Source of the DNA: an uncultured Psychroserpens sp.
GTDB taxonomy: Bacteria > Bacteroidota > Bacteroidia > Flavobacteriales > Flavobacteriaceae
Reading direction: 5' to 3'
Assembly: GCF_947492715.1 (NCBI RefSeq)
Contig: NZ_CANLNS010000006.1
Span: 1 to 64,000, forward strand
Length of the DNA stretch: 64,000 bases
Under the pieces are notes generated by a model that did no database searches, was not told the origin of the DNA, and saw only the letters and a list, made by a program, of their open reading frames with translations. Numbering within the stretch: the stretch's first letter is position 1; each line of letters begins with the position of its first letter. The translations under genes were made by a program, and so were the position numbers. Shown in pieces: positions 46,065-60,338 of the stretch.

Positions 46065-47918
46065 ATGAAAAAGCAAACACTTTTATACGCTCTAATCGTA
46101 TTAACAATGAGCTGTGAAACCGATAAAAAAACAGAAGATACAGCTTCCAAATATGTTGAAGAATCACATTCATACGCCAAACCTAACGAGTCTGTAATCA
46201 AGCATTTAGATTTAAATATAGATGTTAATTTTACAACTAAAACTATTGACGGAACAGCCACTTACACCATTGATACTAACAATGCTTCTGAAATTATTTT
46301 AGATTCAAAATTTTTGGAAATTGAAAGTGTTGAAGCCGATGGAAAAGCTACCAATTTTAATCTTGGAGACTTTGATGAACAGTTAGGACAGGCTTTGCAT
46401 ATAAGCATCGAAAATGATACCAAGCAAATTTCGGTTCATTACAAAACAACAGATAAAACAGAAGCCTTGCAATGGTTAAATCCGCAACAGACAGCAGATA
46501 AAACGCATCCATTTTTATTTACACAAGGTCAGGCCATTTTAACTCGCTCCTGGATTCCAATTCAGGATAGTCCTCAAATTAGAATTACCTACGATGCCAC
46601 TGTGAAAGTACCAAAAGAACTTATGGCAGTTATGAGTGCCGAAAATCCAAAAGAAAAAACCGTTGATGGTATTTACACGTTTAAGATGAAACAGCCAATC
46701 TCACCTTACCTTATGGCTTTAGCTGTTGGAGATATTGCCTATAAAGCAGTAAGTAACAGAACTGGTGTTTATGCTGAAAAATCTATGGTCGATAAAGCTC
46801 AAGCCGAGTTTAGTGACATGGAAAAAATGGTAGTTGCTGCCGAAAACCTATACGGAGATTATGATTGGGATCAATTTGACGTGATCGTCTTACCACCTAG
46901 CTTTCCATTTGGAGGTATGGAAAACCCAAGACTTACTTTCGCTACACCTACTGTTATTGCTGGTGATAAGAGCTTAACATCACTAATAGCTCATGAACTC
47001 GCCCACTCTTGGTCTGGAAATTTAGTAACCAATGCCACATGGAATGACTTTTGGCTTAATGAAGGTTTTACCGTGTATTTTGAAATTAGAATCATGGAAG
47101 CCCTCTACGGAAAAGATCGCGCTAATATGATTGCATTAATTGGAAGGCAAGATTTGGAAGAAGAAGTTGAAGGCTTTAAAGACGAACCAGAAATGACCAA
47201 ATTAAAATTGGATTTAACTGATAAAAATCCTGACGATGGCATGAACAGCATTGCTTATGACAAAGGTTATTTGTTCTTGAGAACTTTAGAGGAGAAAGTA
47301 GGTCGAGATAAATTTGATGCCTTTCTAAAAAATTATTTTAAGACCAATGCTTTTTCTACCGTAACAACCGAAGGCTTTATAGATTATCTTAATTCAAATT
47401 TATTAGAACCTAATGGGATTGATTTTAATGTAGACGAATGGGTGTATCAAGCTGGTGTTCCAAATAACCAGGCCATTATCGTATCTGACAAGTTTGAGAA
47501 TGCCAAAAACACTTTACAATCTTTTATAGATAATAAAACTGTAGATGCGTCAAAAACTTCTAATTGGACTACGCAAGAATGGGTACATTTCATTAGAAAT
47601 TTCCCTGAAACGATTACTACCGAAGATTTAAAACGTTTGGACGATGCCTTCGATTTAACTAATTCTAGTAATTCTCATATTGCTATGGTTTGGTATGAAC
47701 AAGCCATTAACCATGATTATCACGGAAATGACGTAGACCAACGTATTGAAGACTTTTTAATTCGCGTAGGAAGACGTTGGTATGTATCTACATTGTACAA
47801 GGCTTTTAAAAGAAATGACAAGGTTGATGACGCCTTAGCAATCTATAACAAAGCCCGAGCTAATTATCACTCGGTAACTGCCAATACTATTGATGACCTA
47901 TTGGGATACAACCAATAA
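46065..47918 (+). CDS. M1 family aminopeptidase lipoprotein
   Basis: A 617 aa zinc aminopeptidase with a lipoprotein signal (ALIVLTMSCETDKK). The zinc site HELAH (H310, E311, H314) with E333 of NEGFTVYFE makes the HExxHx18E motif. GGMENPR (the aminopeptidase GxMEN motif) is present upstream. The leukotriene-A4-hydrolase-like C-terminal helical domain completes the length. It cleaves N-terminal residues of peptides at the cell surface or periplasm. It starts 5 bases after the preceding gene. Confidence 0.95.
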   Translation: MKKQTLLYALIVLTMSCETDKKTEDTASKYVEESHSYAKPNESVIKHLDLNIDVNFTTKTIDGTATYTIDTNNASEIILDSKFLEIESVEADGKATNFNLGDFDEQLGQALHISIENDTKQISVHYKTTDKTEALQWLNPQQTADKTHPFLFTQGQAILTRSWIPIQDSPQIRITYDATVKVPKELMAVMSAENPKEKTVDGIYTFKMKQPISPYLMALAVGDIAYKAVSNRTGVYAEKSMVDKAQAEFSDMEKMVVAAENLYGDYDWDQFDVIVLPPSFPFGGMENPRLTFATPTVIAGDKSLTSLIAHELAHSWSGNLVTNATWNDFWLNEGFTVYFEIRIMEALYGKDRANMIALIGRQDLEEEVEGFKDEPEMTKLKLDLTDKNPDDGMNSIAYDKGYLFLRTLEEKVGRDKFDAFLKNYFKTNAFSTVTTEGFIDYLNSNLLEPNGIDFNVDEWVYQAGVPNNQAIIVSDKFENAKNTLQSFIDNKTVDASKTSNWTTQEWVHFIRNFPETITTEDLKRLDDAFDLTNSSNSHIAMVWYEQAINHDYHGNDVDQRIEDFLIRVGRRWYVSTLYKAFKRNDKVDDALAIYNKARANYHSVTANTIDDLLGYNQ

Positions 47919-47974
47919 ACATTTCATTCTAGAATAGTTTGTATCTTTAACCAAAGTACATTTATTCTATACAG

Positions 47975-48376
47975 ATGAAAAAGTTAGTCAATTCGGAAAC
48001 CAACAAAAATGTTGATGCATTTATAGATAACATAGACAACGCCACTAGAAAGGCAGATAGTAAGCTATTGGTTGATCTTATAAGAAACATAACAAAGAAA
48101 GAACCTAAAATTTGGGGAGCTCGCATTGTGGGTTATGGCAAATACGCTTACAAAAGAAAAAATGGTGACGAATTCGAATGGTTTAATGTTGGTTTTTCAC
48201 CTGGAAAAGCGAATCTCACTATTTATGTGATGTATGACATTAATGAGGAAGAAGCGCTCCTAAATCAGTTGGGCAAACACAAAACAGGACGAGGTTGTCT
48301 TTATATCAAAAAACTAGAAGATATAGACATAAACGTTTTAAAAAAAATCATTAAAAAAAGTGATAAATGGAATTGA
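47975..48376 (+). CDS. DUF1801-type protein
   Basis: A 133 aa protein with the DUF1801 pattern: a helical start (NVDAFIDNIDNATRKADSKLLVDLI), the central PKIWGARIVGYGKYAYK, FSPGKANLTIYV, and LGKHKTGRGCLYIKKLEDID. The fold resembles YdhG-type proteins; no function is known. It has no signal peptide and stands alone. Confidence 0.8.
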   Translation: MKKLVNSETNKNVDAFIDNIDNATRKADSKLLVDLIRNITKKEPKIWGARIVGYGKYAYKRKNGDEFEWFNVGFSPGKANLTIYVMYDINEEEALLNQLGKHKTGRGCLYIKKLEDIDINVLKKIIKKSDKWN

Positions 48377-48438
48377 TGTGTCGCCTCTATAAACGAATAA
48401 AATTAATTATATAGCCTTGTATACCATAACCTAAATTT

Positions 48439-48726
48439 ATGAACAAAAAACGCTATACTTTAGTTCTAGTTTTATTCTTTTTAACCATTTCTATCGTTAA
48501 AGCTCAATCTAAAGAAGCAAAATTTTAGAATTGGGTCGTTGAACACAAAATGGAACTCGAAGCCTTTATTAATTATAGAGGAAAAATGATTTTTTGTTGC
48601 GGTGAAATTATGAAAGAAAAAAACAAACTGACCTATTTCCTTAATAAGAATCAGCTCATTGATAGTCTTGTAATAGAAAGTCTAGAGACCGATAAAAAAA
48701 TGTCTTTTGAATATGAATACCAATAA
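48439..48726 (+). pseudogene. Small secreted protein interrupted by an in-frame TAG
   Basis: From ATG 48439 the frame encodes a signal peptide (LVLVLFFLTISIVKA) but stops at TAG 48526-48528 (codon 30). The same frame stays open for another 65 codons to TAA 48724-48726, with content typical of a soluble domain (NWVVEHKMELEAFINYRGK, CCGE, DSLVIESLE). A single base change (for example CAG to TAG) would explain it. It is either a recent pseudogene or a sequencing error. No family recognised. Confidence 0.55.
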
Positions 48727-48740
48727 AACAGGCTTTTAAA

Positions 48741-49295
48741 ATGAAGGTTTTGATATTTGGAGCTTCTGGTTCTGGAACCACAACTTTAGGAAACGAAATT
48801 GAAAGACAAATAGCGTTTAAACATTTAGATGTTGACCACTATTATTGGAAAAATACCGAACCACCATTTCAAGAAAAAATACCGCTAGACGAACGAAATC
48901 AAAATCTGAAAGCCGATTTTAAAACATTCGAGAACGTTGTTGTGAGTGGCTCAATGGTGAGCTGGGGAATAGAATGGCAAACGGCATTCGACATAGTTGT
49001 TTTTATAACATTAGATAATGAAAAAAGAATGGAACGGCTTAAAAATAGGGAAGCTGAACGCTATGGAAAACGACTGATAACGAATAAAAGCATTAAACAG
49101 AATTCAGAGGCATTTTTAGAATGGGCCAATCAATATGAAAACCCTAATTTTGAAGGTAGATCTCTAAAAATTCATAACAATTGGATCAAACAACTTAATT
49201 GCAAGATCATGAGAATTGATGGAGAGATTGAATTAATTTATAAGACAACAGAAGTAATTAACGCCATAAAAAACCACAAACCACATTGCAGATGA
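48741..49295 (+). CDS. P-loop kinase-like protein
   Basis: A 184 aa cytoplasmic protein with a Walker A motif GASGSGTTT at residues 7-15 and a shikimate/adenylate kinase-like layout (HLDVDHYYWKNTEPPF, then VVVSGSMVSWG and a lid with RLKNREAERYGKR). It probably phosphorylates a small molecule, not identified. Its stop overlaps the ATG of the next lipoprotein gene (ATGA). Confidence 0.75.
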   Translation: MKVLIFGASGSGTTTLGNEIERQIAFKHLDVDHYYWKNTEPPFQEKIPLDERNQNLKADFKTFENVVVSGSMVSWGIEWQTAFDIVVFITLDNEKRMERLKNREAERYGKRLITNKSIKQNSEAFLEWANQYENPNFEGRSLKIHNNWIKQLNCKIMRIDGEIELIYKTTEVINAIKNHKPHCR

Positions 49296-50053
49296 ACCTG
49301 AATACAATAAAAAATATTGGATTATTATTTTTGATGTTGTTATTGGCTTCATGCAATAAATATGCTCGTAAAAACTACCCTCAATTCGTCTCAAAACCTG
49401 AAAGCTACAAACATATAAATAGTTGTTATTCTGCTGACATCCAAAATTTGGATGACATTCCAATCGATGTAAAAAACAATGTTATCTCTTATCTTAAAAA
49501 CAGATTAGGTAATGATAATTTTCAAAAGCTAGAATTTGATCATGCTAATGTGCTATCTAATAGGCTTACAGACATTGAAACGATTAAAACCAAGGACAAC
49601 ATTTCGGCACTTCTAGGTGAAGAAGACAAAAGGAGTGATTGTGATACCATTTCGGCTTTCCCAATATACTCTGTAGTTTATCAGCTTAAAAACCCTGAAA
49701 TTGGAATTGAAAAAATTGGATTAAATGTAATGATCGACAACAACGGAAAAACCATTAAAGACATTGAATTTCCAAGAGCAGAATTTGTAGATATAATAAT
49801 ACCTATAGACTCTGTACATTCAGAGTTAATTCGTAGAAAAATACCCTCAAAAAACCTAACTATAGAATTGTGGTTCGACAAGAAAACGGAATCACTTTTT
49901 TGGTCGACCAACACCGTGGTTCGAAAAGGTAGTATTGCAGGACCTAGTTGTTTTCCTGAAATAGACTACCATTTTAAAATGAACGCCATAACAGGCAAAA
50001 TAACAACATATACTTTTGAAACACATGAAGACTATTTTGCCGAAAGATATTAA
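49292..50053 (+). CDS. Lipoprotein of unknown function
   Basis: A 253 aa lipoprotein (GLLFLMLLLASCNKY). The mature part includes CDTISAFPIYSVVYQ and C-terminal HFKMNAITGKITTYTF. No known domain recognised. The ATG at 49292 overlaps the upstream TGA, so the two genes are coupled. Confidence 0.75.
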   Translation: MNLNTIKNIGLLFLMLLLASCNKYARKNYPQFVSKPESYKHINSCYSADIQNLDDIPIDVKNNVISYLKNRLGNDNFQKLEFDHANVLSNRLTDIETIKTKDNISALLGEEDKRSDCDTISAFPIYSVVYQLKNPEIGIEKIGLNVMIDNNGKTIKDIEFPRAEFVDIIIPIDSVHSELIRRKIPSKNLTIELWFDKKTESLFWSTNTVVRKGSIAGPSCFPEIDYHFKMNAITGKITTYTFETHEDYFAERY

Positions 50054-50186
50054 CTCAATTTCGTCCTTATTAAAACCACTATAAACACTTCCCGTTTTTT
50101 TGAACTAAAGGTTTGCAAGCGTTTACTTTTTATTCTGACTACCGTAAAATTACGTTTAATCTTTACAAGATATGGCACTCAAATTA

Positions 50187-50339
50187 TCATCCTGTATGAC
50201 TGTAATAAGAAAATCCGCATCTTTCGCATGGTTCGCTAGGATGGCCTACAAAATGCCCACATTGTTCCGAATGTCCAGAATAACTCAATTCTTTTTTAAC
50301 GGTTTCAACCGTTGGTTCTAATGTTTGTTCTAGTTTCAT
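50187..50339 (-). CDS. Small cysteine/histidine-rich putative zinc-binding protein (50 aa)
   Basis: A minus-strand ORF of 50 aa. Its C-terminal half has C27, H29, H33, C38 and C41 in the pattern CGHFxGHPxEPCxxCG, which suggests a single structural zinc site. The N-terminal half (EQTLEPTVETVKKEL) is a plain helix. The intact motif in so short a frame makes it likely to be real. No family named. It is the only coding content of the gap 50054-50505; the rest shows no clear signal. Confidence 0.6.
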   Translation of the reverse strand: MKLEQTLEPTVETVKKELSYSGHSEQCGHFVGHPSEPCERCGFSYYSHTG

Positions 50340-50505
50340 AATTACCTGTTTAATTGTTTCTATAGCTACTCATCGTATCTATTTATAAATGTCACCAAAA
50401 CAAGCATTTAACTACTCTAAACCCCTCTGTATAGAATTCATTTCAATTCACTATCTTTCGCTTATATCCAAAACTTAAACATCAAAATAGGGCTTAAAAA
50501 AATTA

Positions 50506-51495
50506 ATGGAAGATAAAATACAGGACATATTTGGTTTGAAGTTAGATATAAATCAACGAAAAAAAAGTTACGACTTCATTGAAACATTTATCGAAACTAA
50601 TGTTACAGATTGGAGTACAGCTCCAGATACAGAAGCCGTTGAAATCGCATTTACAGAAACACTAAAAACGCTATCTAATAATGAGTTGGCTTTTTTATTA
50701 GTGCATTCAGGCTATATTCCAGAATTTTATGGGCATGATTCCTCTCAAGAAACACTATATTCAAAGCTGGTTGAATCCCTTGTATGCGAATGGGCCCAAA
50801 GAATTGGTTTTAGTGATACTGCATTACAAAAACAAAAGTCTAACAAAGAAGATGTAACTGTAAAAATTGACAATAATATCATCGTTTGCGACGCCAAGAG
50901 TTTTCGGCTTGGCAGAAGTCAAAAAGCCCCTAATGTCAAGGATGTCATAAAACAAGCGTCTTACATCAAATGGTTAGATCAATATGAAGATAATGAGTGT
51001 CGCGCAGGACTGGTAACCTTTCCATCACTATTGGATTGGAAGAACAATAGTGAAGCCTACCAATATTTTTCTGACCACCATTTACCTATTCTGTTTTTGT
51101 TCTATGAACATTTATCTTTCTTACTCATCTCTGACAGCTTTAATCATCAAACTATCATTGACCTATTACATAATTATGAAGATGTTTTTCCAGAGAGTTC
51201 TCGGCACAAAGCAGCTTATATTAATGGTCTTAATAATTCACTATTTCTGAGTCCAATAAAAGAAGTGCTCGATAATTTCCTTGAGCTTTCAGCTTTAGTC
51301 ATAAAGGAAAAAGTTCAGCATTCAATTCAACGAATTGAAGCAAAAGCAATAGAAGTAAAAGCAGCCATAGAAAGTCATATTAATGCCATGAAACTTGAGC
51401 AGTTAAGAGCATTTACATTTGAGGTAACTTATGAAAATGAATTTGGCCAAATGCTAAAACAGTTAGCCAATATTAAAGACTATAGACCACATTAA
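50506..51495 (+). CDS. HindIII-family type II restriction endonuclease
   Basis: A 329 aa nuclease similar to R.HindIII. The catalytic block is strikingly alike: D116 in KEDVTVKID, then D129-A-K131 followed by SFRLGR, matching D108 and D123-A-K125 SFRL of HindIII. Upstream SQETLYSKLVESLVCEWAQ and downstream LPILFLFYEHLSFLL also align. HindIII cuts A^AGCTT; the specificity here is unproven. It converges with the 51492 methyltransferase (4-base tail overlap), completing a restriction-modification locus. Confidence 0.9.
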   Translation: MEDKIQDIFGLKLDINQRKKSYDFIETFIETNVTDWSTAPDTEAVEIAFTETLKTLSNNELAFLLVHSGYIPEFYGHDSSQETLYSKLVESLVCEWAQRIGFSDTALQKQKSNKEDVTVKIDNNIIVCDAKSFRLGRSQKAPNVKDVIKQASYIKWLDQYEDNECRAGLVTFPSLLDWKNNSEAYQYFSDHHLPILFLFYEHLSFLLISDSFNHQTIIDLLHNYEDVFPESSRHKAAYINGLNNSLFLSPIKEVLDNFLELSALVIKEKVQHSIQRIEAKAIEVKAAIESHINAMKLEQLRAFTFEVTYENEFGQMLKQLANIKDYRPH

Positions 51496-53813
51496 ATCTT
51501 TGACAGAATAAGTCGTGAAACTTTAACGATTTCATTACTACTTCGTTTTGAGACTGTATTGAGGTTTAAACCACTCAAAGTCGAAAATATCTCAATCATA
51601 ACCGCTCTATCATTCTCATCAATTTGAGCTTTTGTCTTACTATTTCTTTTAAATTCTTCAAATAAAGCTATAGCTTTATAAAGTTGCGTGTTTTCGGGTA
51701 ATAATTGCGTGTCAATCTCATTTAATTGAATGATTTGGTTACGTTTCTCTGTATAGAGCCCGTTAGCAATCAACAAATTTGTATCGACCTCATTCTCATT
51801 CAAATATTTAGACAGATATGTTCTTGTAATATCGTCATAAATACCACTATTTCTGTGTATTGAAATTTTAGAATAATCCCTAATTACGTCTCTATAGGCA
51901 TCATCGAAACACTTTGCATTGAGAATCATATCCTTGCAAGCCAAAGCCGCCAAATAAATGACTTTATGACTCTCCAATATCTCTCCTTTTTGTACTTCGA
52001 TATCGAGAGCTGAGATGTCATCTGATACGCTTTTAATATGTGTTTTGTCTTTTTTCATTTTAAAAACAATAACACCATTTAGGGCTTCATAAGACATTGC
52101 CCTAGGTCTGGCAATACGCTCCATTTCCAGTGGTAAGCATTCATCAATAAATAAATTTGCATCTCTAATGGCTTCACCAATAACCTTCCAACCTTCAAAG
52201 GTTTTATGCGAATAAAGCATAAGTGCCTTTCCATTAGATTTCAGTACTCTATTGACTTCTTTTAGAACGTCTGTCATTAAACTTTGATAATGATTCTGAT
52301 CTTTACCATTTTTTCCTCCATTTGCGAGATCAACAATAGCTTCAGAGTTATGGTCGTTCTCTAAATTTGCAGACTCTGAAAATGTATGTTTTATAATAAC
52401 TTCAAACCAAGGTCTAAAGAATTCACTAAGTCCTGTATAGTCTATAGAATCAAAATAAGGTGGATCTGTAAGTACAATATCAATATACTCGTCTTTAAAA
52501 GGCAATGCTGCTGATGATCCTTTGATAATCTCAACTTTATGCTTTAAATCTATTGCCATAAACGTATTACAAACCCTATCTAACTTAGATCTAAGATTTG
52601 AACCCGATTTATAAAATGGATTCACTTCAATAAAATCCCATTTCATTCCTACTCCTGGTCCAGCCAAACTCCTCCCCGTTTGCTCATTTTGAGCTATCCA
52701 CATTGTTCCTTTGCTATTCCAATCTACAAGAAATTCAACAAGCGAAGTAAGGCCTAATACTATTTGTTTAGCTGTTTTTAAATCGTACACTTTGAGTAGT
52801 CGATTGTATTCATTTATGATTTCATCAATTAAACCTAACAAAATAACAAGCTGTCTATCGGTAAAAAAATCTGACGGTATTTTTAAATCATATAATGTTG
52901 GGTTTATTACGCCTCCCTTTTTTGTAACTATATTTTTTGGAAGTAATTGCTCTAGTCTATCTAATTCTAATGCAATAGACGCTTTATATTTGTTTAGATC
53001 CTCACCATCTCTACTATCAATTTTCCTATATGCTTTTTTTTCTTTTTCATTATGATAGCATATGGCAAAAGGCCTATAACCTAATGTATTGTTTACACAG
53101 TAATCTTTAATATCCTTAAAGCTGTTAACTACTCCGCATTTTGGACATTCAAATCCTTTTATTTTACTATTTGTAGTGGTGTCCTGTGTATCCTCAACTA
53201 TAGTTTCATTATGGTCAAAATAAATTGTTTTCTTCTTTTTCTTGCTTAAATACTTCAGACGTTTTAAATCAATTTCAGAATTACAATTAACACATTTTGA
53301 GATTTTCGAACAATATATCACATATGGGACATCTCCATTTAGATCAAAATACTTAGCATACTTTTTATTTAAGTTTTCAATAATAATTGTCCCAGAATTT
53401 CTCAATTTTTCAGAATAATCGGGTACCTCGATGGCATTAAATATTGTGTCTTGTAATAATGAAGCAACAGGATTTAATTCAGCAGAAAACGTTTGAAAAC
53501 CTAACCTAGAACTTTCAAAAGGTATCGAACCTCCACCTGCAAAAACATCAAGCACTTTTAAATCTGAGGTTTTAAAATCTTCGGAGAATTTCTTGAAATA
53601 CTTCGGCGCCGGATTAGTATCTGAAATCAAGCTAAGATCCACTTGAGGGTCCTTATTTTTACGTTTGAACATTTCCAGAATCAGGAGAGAACGCATGGCA
53701 GTTGTAGGTCGTCTTGCCCACCACACTTTAAGACTATTATAATGGTTTTTTCGCAAATATTTCTCTTTGACTCCAATTTCACTAATTATTTTACTAGTCA
53801 ACCTAACTTTCAT
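51492..53813 (-). CDS. Large DUF1156-like adenine-specific DNA methyltransferase with zinc-ribbon motifs
   Basis: A 773 aa methyltransferase. The start NHYNSLKVWWARRPTTAMRS resembles the HLWWARRP opening of DUF1156 proteins. The SAM motif FAGGG is at 91-95 and the catalytic DPPY at 450-453, so motif I precedes motif IV. Between them lie two CxxC pairs (C174/C177 and C223/C226), a likely zinc ribbon for target recognition or structure. A C-terminal region of 170 residues is unassigned. DPPY marks amino methylation of adenine or cytosine N4. It would protect host DNA from the convergent nuclease. M.HindIII, as I recall, is a much smaller enzyme. Confidence 0.88.
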   Translation of the reverse strand: MKVRLTSKIISEIGVKEKYLRKNHYNSLKVWWARRPTTAMRSLLILEMFKRKNKDPQVDLSLISDTNPAPKYFKKFSEDFKTSDLKVLDVFAGGGSIPFESSRLGFQTFSAELNPVASLLQDTIFNAIEVPDYSEKLRNSGTIIIENLNKKYAKYFDLNGDVPYVIYCSKISKCVNCNSEIDLKRLKYLSKKKKKTIYFDHNETIVEDTQDTTTNSKIKGFECPKCGVVNSFKDIKDYCVNNTLGYRPFAICYHNEKEKKAYRKIDSRDGEDLNKYKASIALELDRLEQLLPKNIVTKKGGVINPTLYDLKIPSDFFTDRQLVILLGLIDEIINEYNRLLKVYDLKTAKQIVLGLTSLVEFLVDWNSKGTMWIAQNEQTGRSLAGPGVGMKWDFIEVNPFYKSGSNLRSKLDRVCNTFMAIDLKHKVEIIKGSSAALPFKDEYIDIVLTDPPYFDSIDYTGLSEFFRPWFEVIIKHTFSESANLENDHNSEAIVDLANGGKNGKDQNHYQSLMTDVLKEVNRVLKSNGKALMLYSHKTFEGWKVIGEAIRDANLFIDECLPLEMERIARPRAMSYEALNGVIVFKMKKDKTHIKSVSDDISALDIEVQKGEILESHKVIYLAALACKDMILNAKCFDDAYRDVIRDYSKISIHRNSGIYDDITRTYLSKYLNENEVDTNLLIANGLYTEKRNQIIQLNEIDTQLLPENTQLYKAIALFEEFKRNSKTKAQIDENDRAVMIEIFSTLSGLNLNTVSKRSSNEIVKVSRLILSKI

Positions 53814-53969
53814 CCGTTCGAATAAATTTTCTTCAAATATAGTTCTTTACAAACATAGTTCTAAGCAAGATTAACAACTATTAAGAGGAGTAGATTATTA
53901 CGCGGTAGTTTGAAAAAAATTGTAACATTTCAATTAAATACGTATCATTATTTAGTAAACTGAATAGAA

Positions 53970-55211
53970 ATGATCAATAACCGCGTTTTCTCAATTATAC
54001 TCATCTTATGTACGTTATTAGTTAGTGCACAACCACTACAAGTTCCAGATTCGACCTACATAAACAAAAACATTAAATCTATTAATGTTAATACCAGCTA
54101 TAAAAATGGCAACTGGAATCCTGTTCTTAAACAAGTTAAAAACAAACGAATAGTGCTTCTAGGAGAACCAAATCATGGCTCGAAAGAAATATTTGAATCA
54201 AGGAATGATTTAATAAAAGCATTACACGAAAAATTAGATTTTAATGTCATCCTTTTTGAATCTGGACTAGGAGAACTCATTTCAATCAATTTGCAAAAAG
54301 AGACCTTAAACCCTACTGAAATGACCTATGGTTTTTTTAGTGGATGGCGAACATCAGAGTTTGTGGATCTTATGGAGTATATAAAAGCAAACGACATTTC
54401 AATAAGTGGTTTCGATGTTCAGCGTACAGGCAATTCGTTTGAGAACCTCATGAAAACGGAATTAAAAAGATTAGGTCTTGATGCCAATCAATTGTCACGC
54501 TTAGAAGCTCGTTTTTCCGAAGAAAAAAAGAAACTAACCAATAGAAAATCAATATTTGATTCTTTAAACAATTCTACCAATACACTCATAAAAGATTATA
54601 AACAACAACTTTCATCTATTGAACAGTTAGACAATAAATATTTAGATCACACATCTCATTTAGTTATAAGAACTATTAAAAACCGTATAAAATATCTAGA
54701 ATACTTTTTGGTTTTTGTGAAAGACAAAGATTGGAGTAAAAGATGGAAAGCACGAGACTCTATGATGTATTCTAATATGGATTGGCTTTTAAAAACTATT
54801 TACAAAAATCAAAAAGTAATAGTGATTGCTCATAATTTTCATATTTCGAAACATAATGTCAAGGAAGAAGTTATGGGAGAATTTCTCAAAAAAAAATATG
54901 GTTCTAAAATGTATGCTATAGGCGTGTTTGCTGGTAAAGGAAGTTTTTTTAATAACCGTGGACAAGAAGAGCAACTAAAACCAGTATCAGATATTGGTCT
55001 AGATATTAAACATGTCATACATCGACTAAACTCTAGAGTTGGTTTTTTGAACATTCCAAAAAAAGCCAATAAAAACACAAATTGGTTATTTAATGATATC
55101 ATCATAAATGATACATTCATTGACTTAAATGGTTCTAATCAAATGATTTTGTCTGAAAATTTTGATGGACTAATTTTTATTGACGAAATTTCACCGCCTA
55201 AAAAAATATAG
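53970..55211 (+). CDS. Erythromycin esterase family protein, secreted
   Basis: A 413 aa protein with a signal peptide (FSIILILCTLLVSAQ). The erythromycin esterase-like (Ere/Qns) fold is marked by RIVLLGEPNHGSKEIFESRNDL with the catalytic His and by VILFESGLGEL, later IAHNFHISKH. Family members hydrolyse macrolide lactones or other small esters; the substrate here is unknown, and the signal peptide argues against cytosolic resistance. It is the first of a row of plus-strand genes. Confidence 0.85.
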   Translation: MINNRVFSIILILCTLLVSAQPLQVPDSTYINKNIKSINVNTSYKNGNWNPVLKQVKNKRIVLLGEPNHGSKEIFESRNDLIKALHEKLDFNVILFESGLGELISINLQKETLNPTEMTYGFFSGWRTSEFVDLMEYIKANDISISGFDVQRTGNSFENLMKTELKRLGLDANQLSRLEARFSEEKKKLTNRKSIFDSLNNSTNTLIKDYKQQLSSIEQLDNKYLDHTSHLVIRTIKNRIKYLEYFLVFVKDKDWSKRWKARDSMMYSNMDWLLKTIYKNQKVIVIAHNFHISKHNVKEEVMGEFLKKKYGSKMYAIGVFAGKGSFFNNRGQEEQLKPVSDIGLDIKHVIHRLNSRVGFLNIPKKANKNTNWLFNDIIINDTFIDLNGSNQMILSENFDGLIFIDEISPPKKI

Positions 55212-55235
55212 CTATTTAGAAAACCCTTTGAACCA

Positions 55236-55778
55236 ATGAGTATTATACAGGACATAACCGAAAAATATTACGGTAAATATTCTGCAGAATCTGAGAAGAG
55301 TTTTAATAGCCCTGTTGGTAAACATTCTTTCCAGCAAAAAAAAGGCATTATAGAAATAGACGGAACAAAAATTAGTATCAACCTAAACGCTGTTAAAGGA
55401 GCAACTTATGGCACTGAACCTTTCAGAATTACACTTCATTTAAATAAAACTTACACTATTAAATTTAGTGCTTTTCCAAAATCTTTATGGCACCGATTCT
55501 TAGATTTTCTTATACCAAGTCGAGTAGTTTTGATACCAAAATCTGTTAGAAATCAATTTTTATTTGGTGGTGATAAAGACATCATAAAAAATATCGTTTC
55601 AGATGAAATTTTCATCAAAAATATAGCTAATGAAAAACTCTACATTGGAACCATGGCTAAACCAACGAATAAAATTATCTTAACTCCTGCCCATGGAATT
55701 AAAGACATGAAACAATTCGAAAAGTTCATTAGTATTTTGAAGTGTGTTCAAAAAACCATAGAAGAGAATGCGCCATAG
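55236..55778 (+). CDS. Protein of unknown function
   Basis: A 180 aa soluble protein without a signal peptide. Strand-like segments EIDGTKISINLNAVKGA and FRITLHLNKTYTIKF dominate, with a hydrophobic patch near LWHRFLDFLIPSRVVLIPK. No family recognised. It follows the esterase gene by 24 bases and may be coexpressed. Confidence 0.6.
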   Translation: MSIIQDITEKYYGKYSAESEKSFNSPVGKHSFQQKKGIIEIDGTKISINLNAVKGATYGTEPFRITLHLNKTYTIKFSAFPKSLWHRFLDFLIPSRVVLIPKSVRNQFLFGGDKDIIKNIVSDEIFIKNIANEKLYIGTMAKPTNKIILTPAHGIKDMKQFEKFISILKCVQKTIEENAP

Positions 55779-55874
55779 CAAACATAAATCAACTAAGTTA
55801 AAATCTTTCAGATTATTCTATAGTTTCATATATATTTACTAACTTAAATCCAAACAAGAACATAGTCAATTATT

Positions 55875-56546
55875 ATGAAATTTTTCAAATCATTTTTAAT
55901 TCTTACTGCACTATTTTTTCTAAAAAACGACTCCACGAAGGCGTATTATTTTCAGCTATCGGATTTAAGCACAAGTATCATTTTTAAATATGAATGTAAG
56001 TCTGATACTTCGAAAACAGAATATTGGAAATTAACATCAAACACCAAGAAAAACACTTTGATAACAGAAGCCTATTCAAACGATCTTAAAAAATATGAAT
56101 TCTTTGTAGAAGAGTTCAACTCTGATGGATCAAAAGTTTTAAAGTTTATTAGTTACCACTGGAATAAAATTGGAGAAATAGAAGTTATCAAAAACAATCT
56201 AAAAGAAGTAGATGTTTTTAAATGGAAAAAAGATCAAACCTACTGCTACTCATCAGAGTATATTGATGGAACATACGGAAAAGTGTCGTTCTCTAAATGC
56301 AGAACTTTTTTGAAAGAAGAGGTCTTAACCATCCTAGGAAAAGACTATCCCGTTCTCAAATTTAAAGGGGTTTATAAAACCAAAATCCCAGGCGCCAATT
56401 ATGACAATGAATACTATCAATATAGTTACTATGCTCAAGGGTTAGGACTAGTTAAAATGGAAAAGAACTACCCTAACGGAAAAACAACAGTATTAGAACT
56501 CACAGAGATTATATCAAATGACGATTGGGAAAAAAAACTAAATTAG
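55875..56546 (+). CDS. Secreted protein of unknown function
   Basis: A 223 aa protein with a weak signal peptide (FFKSFLILTALFFLKN). The mature part has alternating beta strands and two Cys pairs (C43, C-containing YCYSS and KCRTF). Strand pattern recalls periplasmic DUF-type beta-sandwich proteins; no family recognised. It lies 7 bases before the T9SS gene. Confidence 0.6.
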   Translation: MKFFKSFLILTALFFLKNDSTKAYYFQLSDLSTSIIFKYECKSDTSKTEYWKLTSNTKKNTLITEAYSNDLKKYEFFVEEFNSDGSKVLKFISYHWNKIGEIEVIKNNLKEVDVFKWKKDQTYCYSSEYIDGTYGKVSFSKCRTFLKEEVLTILGKDYPVLKFKGVYKTKIPGANYDNEYYQYSYYAQGLGLVKMEKNYPNGKTTVLELTEIISNDDWEKKLN

Positions 56547-56553
56547 ATAGTCT

Positions 56554-57990
56554 ATGATGCTTAGAATAAAAAAAAGGTTAGCATTATTGATTTTAACAGG
56601 AACTGTCATATCTATTCAAGGGCAAGTTCAAATTGGAGATGACATAGATGGTCTAAGCGCTGGTAACCTTTTTGGAAATAAAACGAGTATATCTTCTGAT
56701 GGGACCGTTGTTGCTTGCGTAGGTATTGGAAATGCTGGAGGACAAGGAAATATCCGTGTATTTAAAAACAATAATGGGGTTTGGAGTTTATATGGAACAG
56801 ATCAAAATGGTGCTAATTTTGGAGGCATTGGTGCTTATGATGTAAGTCTATCTGCAGATGGTAACACTTTAGCAATAGGTGGATGGTCTAATGCTGTGAG
56901 GTTATATACTTACGATGCTGTAACCGGTTTTTGGACACAGAAAGGTAATATTATTACAAATAATACTGGCGTAGGTACTTTTGGTTATAGCGTTAGCTTA
57001 TCAGCCGATGGAAATAAAGTGATCATTGGAATACCAGGATTAGGAACCCCTCCTCCACCTGAGTCCGGGATTATTCAAATATTTGAATATAATTCGGGCA
57101 CTTGGAGCCAACTTGGAAATAACATTGAAGGTTCTGTTTTTGCAGGTCATTCTGGACTTAGCGTAAATACATCTTCAGATGGCAATAGGATTGTAATCGC
57201 CAACTACGATTCGGTATTTATCTATGAGAACATTGCAGGTCAATGGACACAACTAGGAAACGAAATTATAGGCGACAATGTATCTGGGTTAGACATTAGT
57301 GACGTTGCCATCTCATCTGATGGTAATACTGTAGCTGTTGGAGAACCTGATTATAGCGATGCTTTTATTCAACGTGGACGTGTTAGAGTCTTTAATTACG
57401 AATCTGGAATATGGCATCAAATTGGTAGTGCTATTATGGGAGAAATAGCTTACTATCGAACAGGCTGGAGCGTGAGCTTATCTTCCAATGGAGACATATT
57501 GGCTATTGGAGAAATAGGCAGTATGAGTGGGTCTACTGACAAAGGACGTACACGAATTTTTAAAAACGTAGGTGGTTTTTGGTCCCAAATAGGAACTAAT
57601 ATTTTTGGTGAAGCGAATGAAGATTACTCTGGCTGGAGTGTAAGTTTGTCTGAAGACGCTAGTACACTTGCTATTGGTGCATCAAGAAATGACGGAAATG
57701 GAGATAATTCTGGGCACACCAGAATTTACAATTTGAGCGCATTACTGTCTGTGAACGATTTGATTCAATCCCAAATTAGTATGTTTCCCAACCCCGCTAA
57801 AGAAGAAGTTACAATTGAGTTGAATGACGCAACTACATTAAATACCGTAAATATCTATAATAGTTTAGGGAAATTAATTCGTACAGTTAACAACCTGATT
57901 ATTGATACATCAAAACTTGCTTCAGGCCTTTATTATGTTGAAATTAAAACCAATTTAGGCAAGGCAACTAAAAAATTAGTGATTCAATAA
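56554..57990 (+). CDS. T9SS-exported propeller protein
   Basis: A 478 aa protein with signal peptide (LALLILTGTVISIQG) and about six repeats of the form (L/S)SADGNTLAIGG...VRVFKN, each 50-60 residues, like the PQQ/FG-GAP-type propeller of flavobacterial secreted proteins. The C-terminal 75 residues are a type A T9SS sorting domain (MFPNPAKEEVTIEL, SLGKLI, ASGLYYVEIKT). It is probably anchored or released at the cell surface after CTD cleavage. Function unknown. Confidence 0.85.
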   Translation: MMLRIKKRLALLILTGTVISIQGQVQIGDDIDGLSAGNLFGNKTSISSDGTVVACVGIGNAGGQGNIRVFKNNNGVWSLYGTDQNGANFGGIGAYDVSLSADGNTLAIGGWSNAVRLYTYDAVTGFWTQKGNIITNNTGVGTFGYSVSLSADGNKVIIGIPGLGTPPPPESGIIQIFEYNSGTWSQLGNNIEGSVFAGHSGLSVNTSSDGNRIVIANYDSVFIYENIAGQWTQLGNEIIGDNVSGLDISDVAISSDGNTVAVGEPDYSDAFIQRGRVRVFNYESGIWHQIGSAIMGEIAYYRTGWSVSLSSNGDILAIGEIGSMSGSTDKGRTRIFKNVGGFWSQIGTNIFGEANEDYSGWSVSLSEDASTLAIGASRNDGNGDNSGHTRIYNLSALLSVNDLIQSQISMFPNPAKEEVTIELNDATTLNTVNIYNSLGKLIRTVNNLIIDTSKLASGLYYVEIKTNLGKATKKLVIQ

Positions 57991-58053
57991 AACTAACGTT
58001 CCTTTTATGGTCTTCATTCCGCATACCTTCTAAATGACCTAAACCTTAACAAC

Positions 58054-58629
58054 ATGATGTGGACATTTCAAACCGACATTTTAAACGAAGGGACTCTAAA
58101 GTTTCAAATTCATAATGATGGTAAAACCATTAGTTATCGTGATTGGATAGATCTCATTCAAAACTCGGTTGAGTTCTGTACATTTTATACAGAACTTTTA
58201 AGAACCTGTGATTTTAAAGGCTTCTTTTGGGAAGTGAAGCCAATCAATAAAAATGAACTCGATTTTGATTTCGAATTTGTTCTTGTTGAAGGCTCTAATT
58301 TAAAGTATTTGGTTGCCAATAGTTCTCGCTTCGAAAAGTACTTTACGCCACACGAGGATGTTGTTAGCTTTCCTAATCTTAGAGGTGATGCGCAACTGGT
58401 TGTACCTACGAAAATTTCAGAAGCAAAACACTACGCACATTTAGCATTATTCTTACGCCATGCACCTAAATCACAGATTTTATCATTCTGGAAAAAAGTA
58501 GGAACGACCTTTTCTCAATTTCTTGGAGAAGATAAAAAATGGCTAAGTACAGCTGGTTTAGGAGTTCATTGGCTGCATGTAAGGATAGATTCAAGCCCAA
58601 AATATTATAGGCATAAAGATTATAAATAA
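58054..58629 (+). CDS. DUF6940-like protein
   Basis: A 191 aa soluble protein. The C-terminal segments FPNLRGDAQLVVP and STAGLGVHWLHVRIDSSPKYYRH match my memory of DUF6940. HWLH and the YRH pair could form a metal site. Function unknown. No signal peptide. The start is one of two adjacent ATGs. Confidence 0.65.
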   Translation: MMWTFQTDILNEGTLKFQIHNDGKTISYRDWIDLIQNSVEFCTFYTELLRTCDFKGFFWEVKPINKNELDFDFEFVLVEGSNLKYLVANSSRFEKYFTPHEDVVSFPNLRGDAQLVVPTKISEAKHYAHLALFLRHAPKSQILSFWKKVGTTFSQFLGEDKKWLSTAGLGVHWLHVRIDSSPKYYRHKDYK

Positions 58630-58745
58630 ATTTACTTTAAGTTATTCTTCATTAGAATGACATCTCAATTAAGCTAGATTCTTTGTTTTCTTTTACTAAA
58701 TTAGTAGCTATAGAAAAGAACGAATAGCCAACATTATAAAACGAA

Positions 58746-59405
58746 ATGATAAACTTCTTCAACAAAAAAAAAGCTAATATCAACTCACTAACAATTCCTG
58801 ATCTTAATTGGACAAAACAACAAGACAATAAGACTATTAAACAATGGATTAACCCAGAGCAAAGTATTGCGCTGTCTTTACATTTCTTTGACTTAGAACC
58901 CGATTTGCCAACGATAAAAAATAAAGATGCTCTTAGAAATTTCTATAGAAATCAAATAGTTCAACACAATGGCGGCTTAGTTTTAGTAGATACAACGCAG
59001 CTAAAAACACATTCTGCTGTAAAAACTATATTCAAAATTCCTCAAGAACCTACTGGGATGGTTTATTTAGCATCCTTGACGATTCCTTTTAAGACCTGCA
59101 GTTATGTGGTGAAAATACAAGCTCCTGAGATTGGAATGACTGGAATGCGAGACACTGTAATTGTAGATAAACTTCTAGGTGAAGGAAAAATTTCATTTGG
59201 AGATGATGGCATTGAAAATTGGTTTTCGGATCCTTACGATAGTTCATTCACCGAAGGAACATTAATGAACAAATCTGAAGACGCTATTTACGATGTCGAT
59301 TTTCAAAATCATCCATTAACCTTAGCCAGACAATTAATCGCTCAACTAGAAGAAAATATTGGATTTAAACCTGAAATAGAAAAACTCATCCCATTCGGAA
59401 AATAA
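58746..59405 (+). CDS. Protein of unknown function
   Basis: A 219 aa soluble protein. Segments LHFFDLEPDLP and KTCSYVVKIQAPEIGMTG suggest an alpha/beta fold. No family recognised. It is followed by two more small genes. Confidence 0.6.
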   Translation: MINFFNKKKANINSLTIPDLNWTKQQDNKTIKQWINPEQSIALSLHFFDLEPDLPTIKNKDALRNFYRNQIVQHNGGLVLVDTTQLKTHSAVKTIFKIPQEPTGMVYLASLTIPFKTCSYVVKIQAPEIGMTGMRDTVIVDKLLGEGKISFGDDGIENWFSDPYDSSFTEGTLMNKSEDAIYDVDFQNHPLTLARQLIAQLEENIGFKPEIEKLIPFGK

Positions 59406-59419
59406 TTATAATTTCAACT

Positions 59420-59752
59420 ATGAAAACTTACAAGTCACTATTCTGGATGGCATGCCTTTCTTTTATAATACTATTGTGCTATTTCTATTTACGAAAGTTA
59501 GATTACGATTATGAAGTATCTTCAAAGACATGGGATATTCAAAATCATGAATATGACATTCGTATCATTGATGAAATCTTATCTAAATCTGATCAATCGA
59601 GGCATCAAATTGATAGTATTTTAAAAGGTCATTATCCGTCTGATGGTGATGGCTTTCGCCACGATGGAGACACCATATTTTTAAGCCAATCCAAACTGAT
59701 ATTTAAAAATGGACAATTAACTAACATCGCTAATCTATACGCTCGAGAATGA
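59420..59752 (+). CDS. Small membrane-anchored protein of unknown function
   Basis: A 110 aa protein with an N-terminal membrane helix (SLFWMACLSFIILLCYFYL) and a short charged domain with DGDGFRHDGDT. No family recognised. Its stop overlaps the next ATG (ATGA), so the two are coupled. Confidence 0.6.
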   Translation: MKTYKSLFWMACLSFIILLCYFYLRKLDYDYEVSSKTWDIQNHEYDIRIIDEILSKSDQSRHQIDSILKGHYPSDGDGFRHDGDTIFLSQSKLIFKNGQLTNIANLYARE

Positions 59753-60234
59753 ACGCAACCAACATAGATATTTACGACTTTAACTTCCTTATTGGAAAGT
59801 GGACCGTCCTAAATAAAAAATTAAAAGAACGCCTTAATAATTGTAATGAATGGACTGAGTTTCAAGCCGAAATGCAAACCAAACCATTTCTTAATGGATT
59901 AGGTTTGATGGATGAAATGAAATCATCACATTTTGGAGATGATTTTATCGGATTTAGTATTAGAATGGTAAACCCAAAAACCAACTCATGGACGATCTAT
60001 TGGGCAGACACTGCACATCCCGAAAATTATTTAAAAGAACAGGTTGTTGGCGAATTTAAAAACGGTATTGGTGAATTTTATGGTGAAGAAACTTATGAAG
60101 GTCGTTCCTACAAATTACGGTTTACTTGGACAAAACCATCCGAAAATACAGCACTATGGAAACAAGCCTACTTTGATGAGAAAAACAGCCAATGGGAAAC
60201 CAATTGGATTATGGAATTTACTAAGATGAATTAG
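59749..60234 (+). CDS. Small beta-rich protein (DUF1579-like)
   Basis: A 161 aa protein with a FDFLIGKW-like opening (DFNFLIGKWTVLN), SIRMVNPKTNSWTIYWAD and an ending WETNWIMEFTK. This lipocalin-like pattern recalls DUF1579; the assignment is uncertain. It overlaps the upstream gene. Confidence 0.6.
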   Translation: MNATNIDIYDFNFLIGKWTVLNKKLKERLNNCNEWTEFQAEMQTKPFLNGLGLMDEMKSSHFGDDFIGFSIRMVNPKTNSWTIYWADTAHPENYLKEQVVGEFKNGIGEFYGEETYEGRSYKLRFTWTKPSENTALWKQAYFDEKNSQWETNWIMEFTKMN

Positions 60235-60338
60235 GACATACACCATTTAATCAGGCTTTAACTAATTTTAGTAATATTAAATTTAGAAACGTTTGCGATG
60301 AATTTTTTATACTAGATTAAATATGCAATAAAGTAACT

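Follow-up and report, generated by a model that had tools for sequence, protein, structure and literature searches.

The closest described relatives of the locus reported here are the HindIII, EcoVIII, PsaI and LlaCI restriction-modification (R-M) systems. In PMC12294265, R.LlaCI is counted among the isospecific HindIII-type enzymes and M.PsaI is a beta-class N6-adenine methylase of 306 amino acids (aa); PMC5974420 places M.HindIII, M.EcoVIII and M.LlaCI in the same class and gives AAGCTT as the site on which M.LlaCI acts. A second point of comparison is the Hma/DUF499-centred systems related to bacteriophage exclusion (BREX), whose methylase HmaB has a DUF1156 start and an adenine methylase core with an insert between motifs I and IV. 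In this study, a gene pair combining a nuclease of the first group with a methylase resembling that of the second was analysed in an uncultured Psychroserpens sp. It lies in a stretch of 64,000 nucleotides (contig NZ_CANLNS010000006.1, positions 1 to 64,000; hereafter the window), to which the coordinates below refer.

The pair is very probably a two-gene type II R-M system of HindIII specificity, in which a DUF1156 methylase of BREX lineage acts as the protector. It has the nuclease family and active-site residues in common with HindIII, EcoVIII and PsaI, the same site AAGCTT being proposed, and differs from them in the kind of methylase. The nuclease would cut unmodified AAGCTT in incoming DNA, as its family and the site avoidance described below suggest. 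The methylase would modify adenine at N6 within AAGCTT, probably in either strand, and this methylation would protect the 575 sites remaining in the host. Unlike the HmaB/BREX-related systems, it would need neither a helicase nor an ATPase, and it occupies the slot held by a small beta-class methylase in the characterised HindIII isoschizomers. The genes and the active-site stretch are as follows.

50506 to 51495, plus strand: HindIII-family restriction endonuclease, 329 aa (PF09518, PADLOC REase_II, HindIII PDB chains, identity to R.LlaCI)
50851 to 50898, plus strand: PD-(D/E)XK active-site stretch, D116 to D129-A-K131 (7-member alignment; aligned with the D...DAK stretch of PDB 2e52)
51492 to 51495, no strand: TTAA, overlapping tail-to-tail stop codons of both genes (open reading frame (ORF) reading)
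51492 to 53813, minus strand: DUF1156-type DNA adenine methyltransferase, 773 aa, putative protector against the nuclease (PF06634, PF01555, PADLOC, identity to the methylases of loci L032-L035)

The two genes converge and share 4 bp at their ends, each reading its own stop codon within TTAA. A nuclease gene adjoining a methylase gene is the arrangement of type II R-M systems, and here the adjacency recurs in 16 loci. Gene order is likewise convergent in LlaCI, from Lactococcus lactis plasmid pAW153, the methylase of which differs in being a beta-class protein of 296 aa without BLAST similarity to the 773 aa protein (E 0.1).

The nuclease matched Pfam RE_HindIII (PF09518) at 6.3e-47 and 160.6 bits (cut-off 25.3), PADLOC REase_II at 234 bits and the PDB chains of crystallised HindIII at E 2.3e-8. 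Its nearest characterised relative found was R.LlaCI (41% identity over 265 aa), to which it is near-identical in the active-site stretch and the following loop; identity to five aligned members from outside the LlaCI half of the family was 24-30%. All four of the family's active-site residues, E82, D116, D129 and K131, are present and, like F133-R134-L135, invariant across the 7 aligned members. We take the D116/D129/K131 stretch to be catalytic, as in HindIII. Judged by these matches and residues, the protein is an intact HindIII-family endonuclease. An earlier note on this DNA, made from the letters alone, had described two convergent ORFs here, a nuclease keeping the HindIII active site (D116, D129-A-K131, SFRL) and a 773 aa partner with a DUF1156-like start unlike the small HindIII-type methylases; the layout and the partner were borne out, as were the active-site residues; A130 and S132 vary among the aligned members.

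Site avoidance was used as an indirect assay of specificity. AAGCTT occurs 11 times in the window, against a mean of 32.5 in dinucleotide shuffles, and is absent between 42845 and 64000; the sites at 5, 729, 11916, 22286 and 42020 listed in the earlier note are all among the 11. The 4.20-Mb genome holds 575 sites, or 137 per Mb, whereas 21 genomes of the same genus (3.1-4.9 Mb) hold 1346-2288, or 396-628 per Mb with sizes rounded. The reversed control TTCGAA is not depleted (1066 here against 298-1017 in the 21 congeners). A motif-blind hexamer scan of 464 kb (the window and 20 stretches of two contigs), using a maximal-order Markov model and hexamers with at least 8 expected sites, ranked AAGCTT first of 2057 in depletion, with 67 observed and 147.8 expected; some GC-rich palindromes fell below its ratio on tiny counts (e.g. 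CCGCGG, 1 against 4.1 expected). Among palindromes under an order-2 Markov model, it was 3rd of 63. In two congeners, each sampled over 200 kb, AAGCTT came 27th of 1882 and 77th of 1980; of the 1865 hexamers compared between this genome and those two, none was reduced as much. A profile search detected no HindIII-family nuclease in 22 congeners. The congener comparison for the window is the weightiest part of the avoidance evidence. Because AAGCTT is far scarcer here than in congeners, specificity appears unchanged; avoidance and family together suggest that the cutter still reads AAGCTT, where it would cleave.

Such avoidance could be the trace of past activity by genes no longer expressed. 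This account, which overlaps with the preferred one, is improbable, though the best placed of those we weighed. In its favour, in a Microscillaceae relative of the pair (L034, 2944-4053) the nuclease lies in two ORFs of 236 and 116 aa and looks broken, beside a full-length DUF1156 methylase. Against it, both frames in the window are open and full length, with motifs intact.

The methylase matched DUF1156 (PF06634) at aa 10-46 and N6_N4_Mtase (PF01555) at aa 444-591, both just above the cut-offs (25.8 bits against 24 and 27.6 against 26.7). Among PADLOC models, MTase_II PDLC03233 scored best (250 bits), followed by HmaB models (141 and 134 bits); NCBIfam NF042963 gave 91 bits, far below its cut-off of 1000. 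Its recognisable parts are listed below; "motif I" and "motif IV" are what we take LDVFAGGG and TDPPY to be.

53676 to 53786, minus strand: DUF1156 segment, aa 10-46 (Pfam match)
53529 to 53552, minus strand: motif I (S-adenosylmethionine binding), LDVFAGGG, aa 88-95 (L88, D89, F91 and G93-G95 invariant in 14 copies)
53136 to 53294, minus strand: four-cysteine zinc-ribbon-like stretch, C174/C177/C223/C226, within the motif I-IV insert (invariant in 14 copies; zinc binding predicted)
52455 to 52469, minus strand: motif IV (catalytic), TDPPY, aa 449-453 (invariant in 14 copies)

NEQ (aa 376-378) is also invariant in the 14 aligned copies. The order of motif I, long insert and motif IV agrees with PMC12839542, where the target-recognition insert of BREX-related methylases is placed after core strand 2. 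The four-cysteine ribbon is proposed to bind zinc and to form part of such an insert, which probably reads the target. None of the features of the beta-class M.HindIII and M.LlaCI (approximately 300 aa, motif IV before motif I, similarity to M.LlaCI) was found: the protein has 773 aa and the reverse motif order, and BLAST against M.LlaCI gave no match at E 0.1. In a phmmer search of PDB chains nothing fell under E 0.19. Foldseek with a predicted model (mean predicted local distance difference test score 77.3, predicted template modelling score 0.78) found no PDB entry at E 0.001 or better and returned mostly generic methyltransferase folds; uninformative on target recognition, this comparison was dropped as a guide to it. 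By its domains and motif order, the methylase probably belongs to the HmaB/BREX-related adenine methylase lineage.

To place the pair among its relatives, genome contigs were scanned with a nuclease alignment, keeping the best 80 of 251 relatives, and viral contigs likewise, giving 7; these sets, the window and five other nuclease loci made up 93 nucleases, each labelled by its adjacent methylase. The partner was of a kind here called beta1 (M.LlaCI-like) in 46, beta2 (approximately 270 aa) in 28 and DUF1156 in 15, raw counts that are inflated by the near-copies L017/L108, L019/L098, L062/L063, L087/L090, L112-L114 and L045/L046. For the other four, none of these kinds adjoined the nuclease (L044 and L115 lie at contig ends and L071 is truncated; the fourth is L091). 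The 15 DUF1156 pairs, all convergent, were found in the window, in four Bacteroidota loci (L032-L035, methylases 51-53% identical to the window's; L033 is from Flagellimonas flava DSM 22638), in Clostridia, Selenomonas and Coriobacteriaceae (L041, L042, L045-L050, methylase identity approximately 30%), at an archaeal contig end (L043, methylase partial at 155 aa) and on a viral contig (L111). A methylase-side scan of viral contigs added one convergent pair (L279), making 15 loci beyond the window; of 38 viral methylase relatives, only L279 and L280, the latter on the L111 contig, have the nuclease within the fetched flanks, and these are the two nearest to the window's protein. Among 395 genomes of the same phylum, 47, the window's included, matched the methylase profile at 1e-10, the window's protein scoring 907 bits and the next 305. 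PDLC03233 scored 662 bits on the Selenomonas methylase L047 and 700 on the Coriobacteriaceae methylase L042, so the HindIII-linked kind is already filed as type II; the model differs from the present description in naming no nuclease partner or site, and the window's branch is far from it.

The earlier note had proposed a novel module pairing. We recognised no description of a HindIII-family nuclease paired with a DUF1156 methylase in the literature searched, and the pairing may be recorded in REBASE. One-off novelty did not survive the comparison of neighbours of other HindIII homologues: the DUF1156 partner recurs in 15 further loci, and the pairing is not specific to this strain. Homologues sharing the pairing were one of the two outcomes that the earlier note had named as refuting it.

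Several loci met in these scans merit separate mention. The HindIII-family ORFs on viral contigs, L111:5581-6900 and L279:3226-4479, have 439 and 417 aa, the latter starting with a cysteine-containing stretch, and both may carry an extra N-terminal domain. On viral contig L281 (2748-8577), a DUF1156 methylase (27% identity) directly follows a 1054 aa ORF, the start of which resembles a type I specificity subunit. In Comamonas (L071:5845-7602), the nuclease ORF has only 233 aa and no neighbouring methylase of any of the three kinds, and the next ORF looks like an IS30-type transposase. In E. coli plasmid pF1059-3 (L011:2841-3746), a beta-class methylase ORF 63% identical to M.LlaCI adjoins the nuclease; it is absent from the gene table and reaches the record start, where the table omits genes.

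Protection against an AAGCTT nuclease might instead come from another methylase elsewhere in the genome, the adjacent DUF1156 protein having no part in it. Adjacency alone is no proof of function, and the own-genome search was limited to PF01555 and M.LlaCI relatives. That search, of a genome 99.95% complete, found nothing by tblastn with M.LlaCI (a search without its own positive control). PF01555, which reached 163-164 bits on a representative of each of the small kinds, had two matches: the DUF1156 protein and, weakly at 21.7 bits, a second protein (G000:C4), which was dropped as an RlmD-type rRNA methylase (258 bits with TIGR00479, cut-off 183.55). The conventional HindIII-type methylase elsewhere in the genome that the earlier note had named as a refuting finding was not encountered in this search. 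Because no methylase of M.HindIII or M.LlaCI type was found here, the leading candidate for the protector is the DUF1156 protein. In three other carriers (G570, G571 and G578), the DUF1156 partner is the sole PF01555 match in the genome, and the pair stands in one orientation in 16 loci of several phyla. On this evidence, a protector elsewhere is unlikely, slightly more so than the relic account.

For the other carriers of the pairing, AAGCTT was counted in twelve further genomes, and the hexamer scan was run on 100-400 kb of eight of them. Counting the window's genome (G000) too, AAGCTT was among the four most under-represented of approximately 2000 hexamers in 6 of 9 sampled carriers (rank 1 in G000, G574 and G577, 2 in G580, and 4 in G570 and G578). 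Carriers counted without the scan included G576 and G579, where sites are very rare (48 in 2.1 Mb and 53 in 3.3 Mb), and G572 (990 in 6.8 Mb). Raw counts alone say little, because seven other family carriers, without composition control, varied widely, from 13 sites in 1.1 Mb to 355 in 0.8 Mb. In 100 kb of G570, a Pseudobacter metagenome-assembled genome (MAG; L199-L203), CATATG (0 against 19.4 expected) and CAGCTG (1 against 24.2) were depleted more strongly than AAGCTT, which suggests further restriction systems there.

The earlier note had also raised a shifted specificity, both enzymes having moved off AAGCTT and the unusual methylase reflecting that. The divergence of the nuclease from the five members outside the LlaCI half and the lack of BLAST similarity between the methylase and M.LlaCI would fit such a shift. 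It fits poorly with the strong avoidance found by the motif-blind scan of this genome, where AAGCTT alone, among hexamers with enough expected sites, stands out as depleted both internally and against two congeners, and with an active-site stretch and following loop near-identical to those of R.LlaCI; we consider it quite unlikely.

That the methylase is a stray HmaB of a decayed Hma/BREX-related operon, beside the nuclease by chance, is very improbable: HmaB models do match it, and DUF1156 methylases of 905-1035 aa adjoin HmaA- and HmaC-type proteins in G073 and G137 and an HmaC-type protein in G329, but the present protein has only 773 aa with its motifs kept, groups with 13 other full-length HindIII-linked copies, a 100/100 branch separating them from six HmaB-type rows, and neither an SNF2-type helicase (HmaA) nor a DUF499 ATPase (HmaC) was seen beside it, judged by ORF length, as no ORF in 45-60 kb of the window exceeds 773 aa. 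The methylase alignment and tree omit L043, cut by its contig end, L279 and L280.

Several points weigh against an AAGCTT system protected by the DUF1156 methylase. The modified base and site, and cleavage, are deduced from sequence. In 3 of the 9 sampled carriers, avoidance was mild (one) or absent (two), AAGCTT ranking 44 in G575, 659 in G573 and 1212 in G571; recent acquisition or low activity may lie behind the missing footprint. A carrier counted without the hexamer scan, G581, has 1241 sites in 3.9 Mb. Under the order-2 palindrome control, AAGCTT came 11th of 60 in G570 and 14th of 63 in G578; as this lowers its rank, some of the signal in these two comes from avoidance of palindromes in general. 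The own-genome methylase search covered PF01555 and M.LlaCI, with HsdM, Eco57I-like, D12 and 5-methylcytosine methylases lying outside it. The Microscillaceae MAG G572 has, besides the pair, a 43% relative of the beta2 methylase and a 26% relative of M.LlaCI, and twelve PF01555 matches in all (across the twelve carriers there were 45 PF01555 rows, 30 of which were compared). The methylase tree has only six HmaB rows as outgroup, and the same-phylum methylase profile search scored two candidates per genome.

Partner changes were traced on the nuclease tree. In the 93-row tree, built by a quick method (R.HindIII not being a row, and L020 being absent with a fragment of the same length, L104, present), a branch of starred support 100 separated the LlaCI half of 23 rows from the rest. 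This half contained 15 DUF1156, 4 beta2 and 3 beta1 partners and 1 nuclease with none, the DUF1156 methylase being its commonest partner; the other 70 rows contained 43 beta1, 24 beta2 and 3 with none, and outside the LlaCI half most loci have the R-M genes in tandem. Partner kind needed 8 changes on this tree, with a minimum of 2, and 7 on a careful 30-row tree (L038, a near-copy, left out). A single clade of all DUF1156-partnered nucleases was rejected by the approximately unbiased test (p 2.2e-6), a group that was defined with the first tree already in view. The window nuclease grouped, with support 80/91, with that of Leyella stercorea (L031:5156-6975), which has a small beta2-type methylase upstream in tandem. 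As the Leyella nuclease is 50% identical to the window's and yet beta2-partnered, the partner clearly differs between near relatives. Both nuclease-tree outputs warn of long branches. Taken together, the trees point to one methylase subfamily and several partner changes in the LlaCI half.

The surroundings of the pair were compared with those in congeners.

47909 to 60312, no strand: variable stretch holding the pair, with syntenic flanks (congener comparison)

Congener synteny runs to approximately 47.9 kb and resumes at approximately 60.3 kb; the interval is approximately 12.4 kb here, 2.0 kb in G541 and 2.6 kb in G539. Because the congener intervals are shorter and none of the listed DNA matches in 22 congeners covers the pair, it appears to be cargo carried at a variable site in the chromosome. 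GC content showed no clear step at the pair. Scans for sigma-70 promoters and terminators in 50050-54000 gave results near shuffle level; therefore, no regulatory claim is made.

The pair is presumably ordinary in function, and it is unusual in its parts and recurrent in nature. As to its origin, we somewhat favour the view that a DUF1156 methylase of the BREX/Hma lineage was captured as a free-standing type II enzyme that methylates AAGCTT by way of its zinc-ribbon insert, that its recognition arose apart from that of the beta-class enzymes, and that the nuclease family has exchanged three kinds of methylase with the site kept. The HindIII family uses at least three methylase kinds, its nuclease tree requires several changes of partner, and the avoidance of AAGCTT in two-thirds of the sampled carriers points to a constant site through these changes. 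The family offers a natural experiment in how a toxic nuclease can persist while its protector is exchanged, and the DUF1156/BREX-lineage methylase gains a concrete predicted target, AAGCTT, that can be assayed with commercial HindIII.

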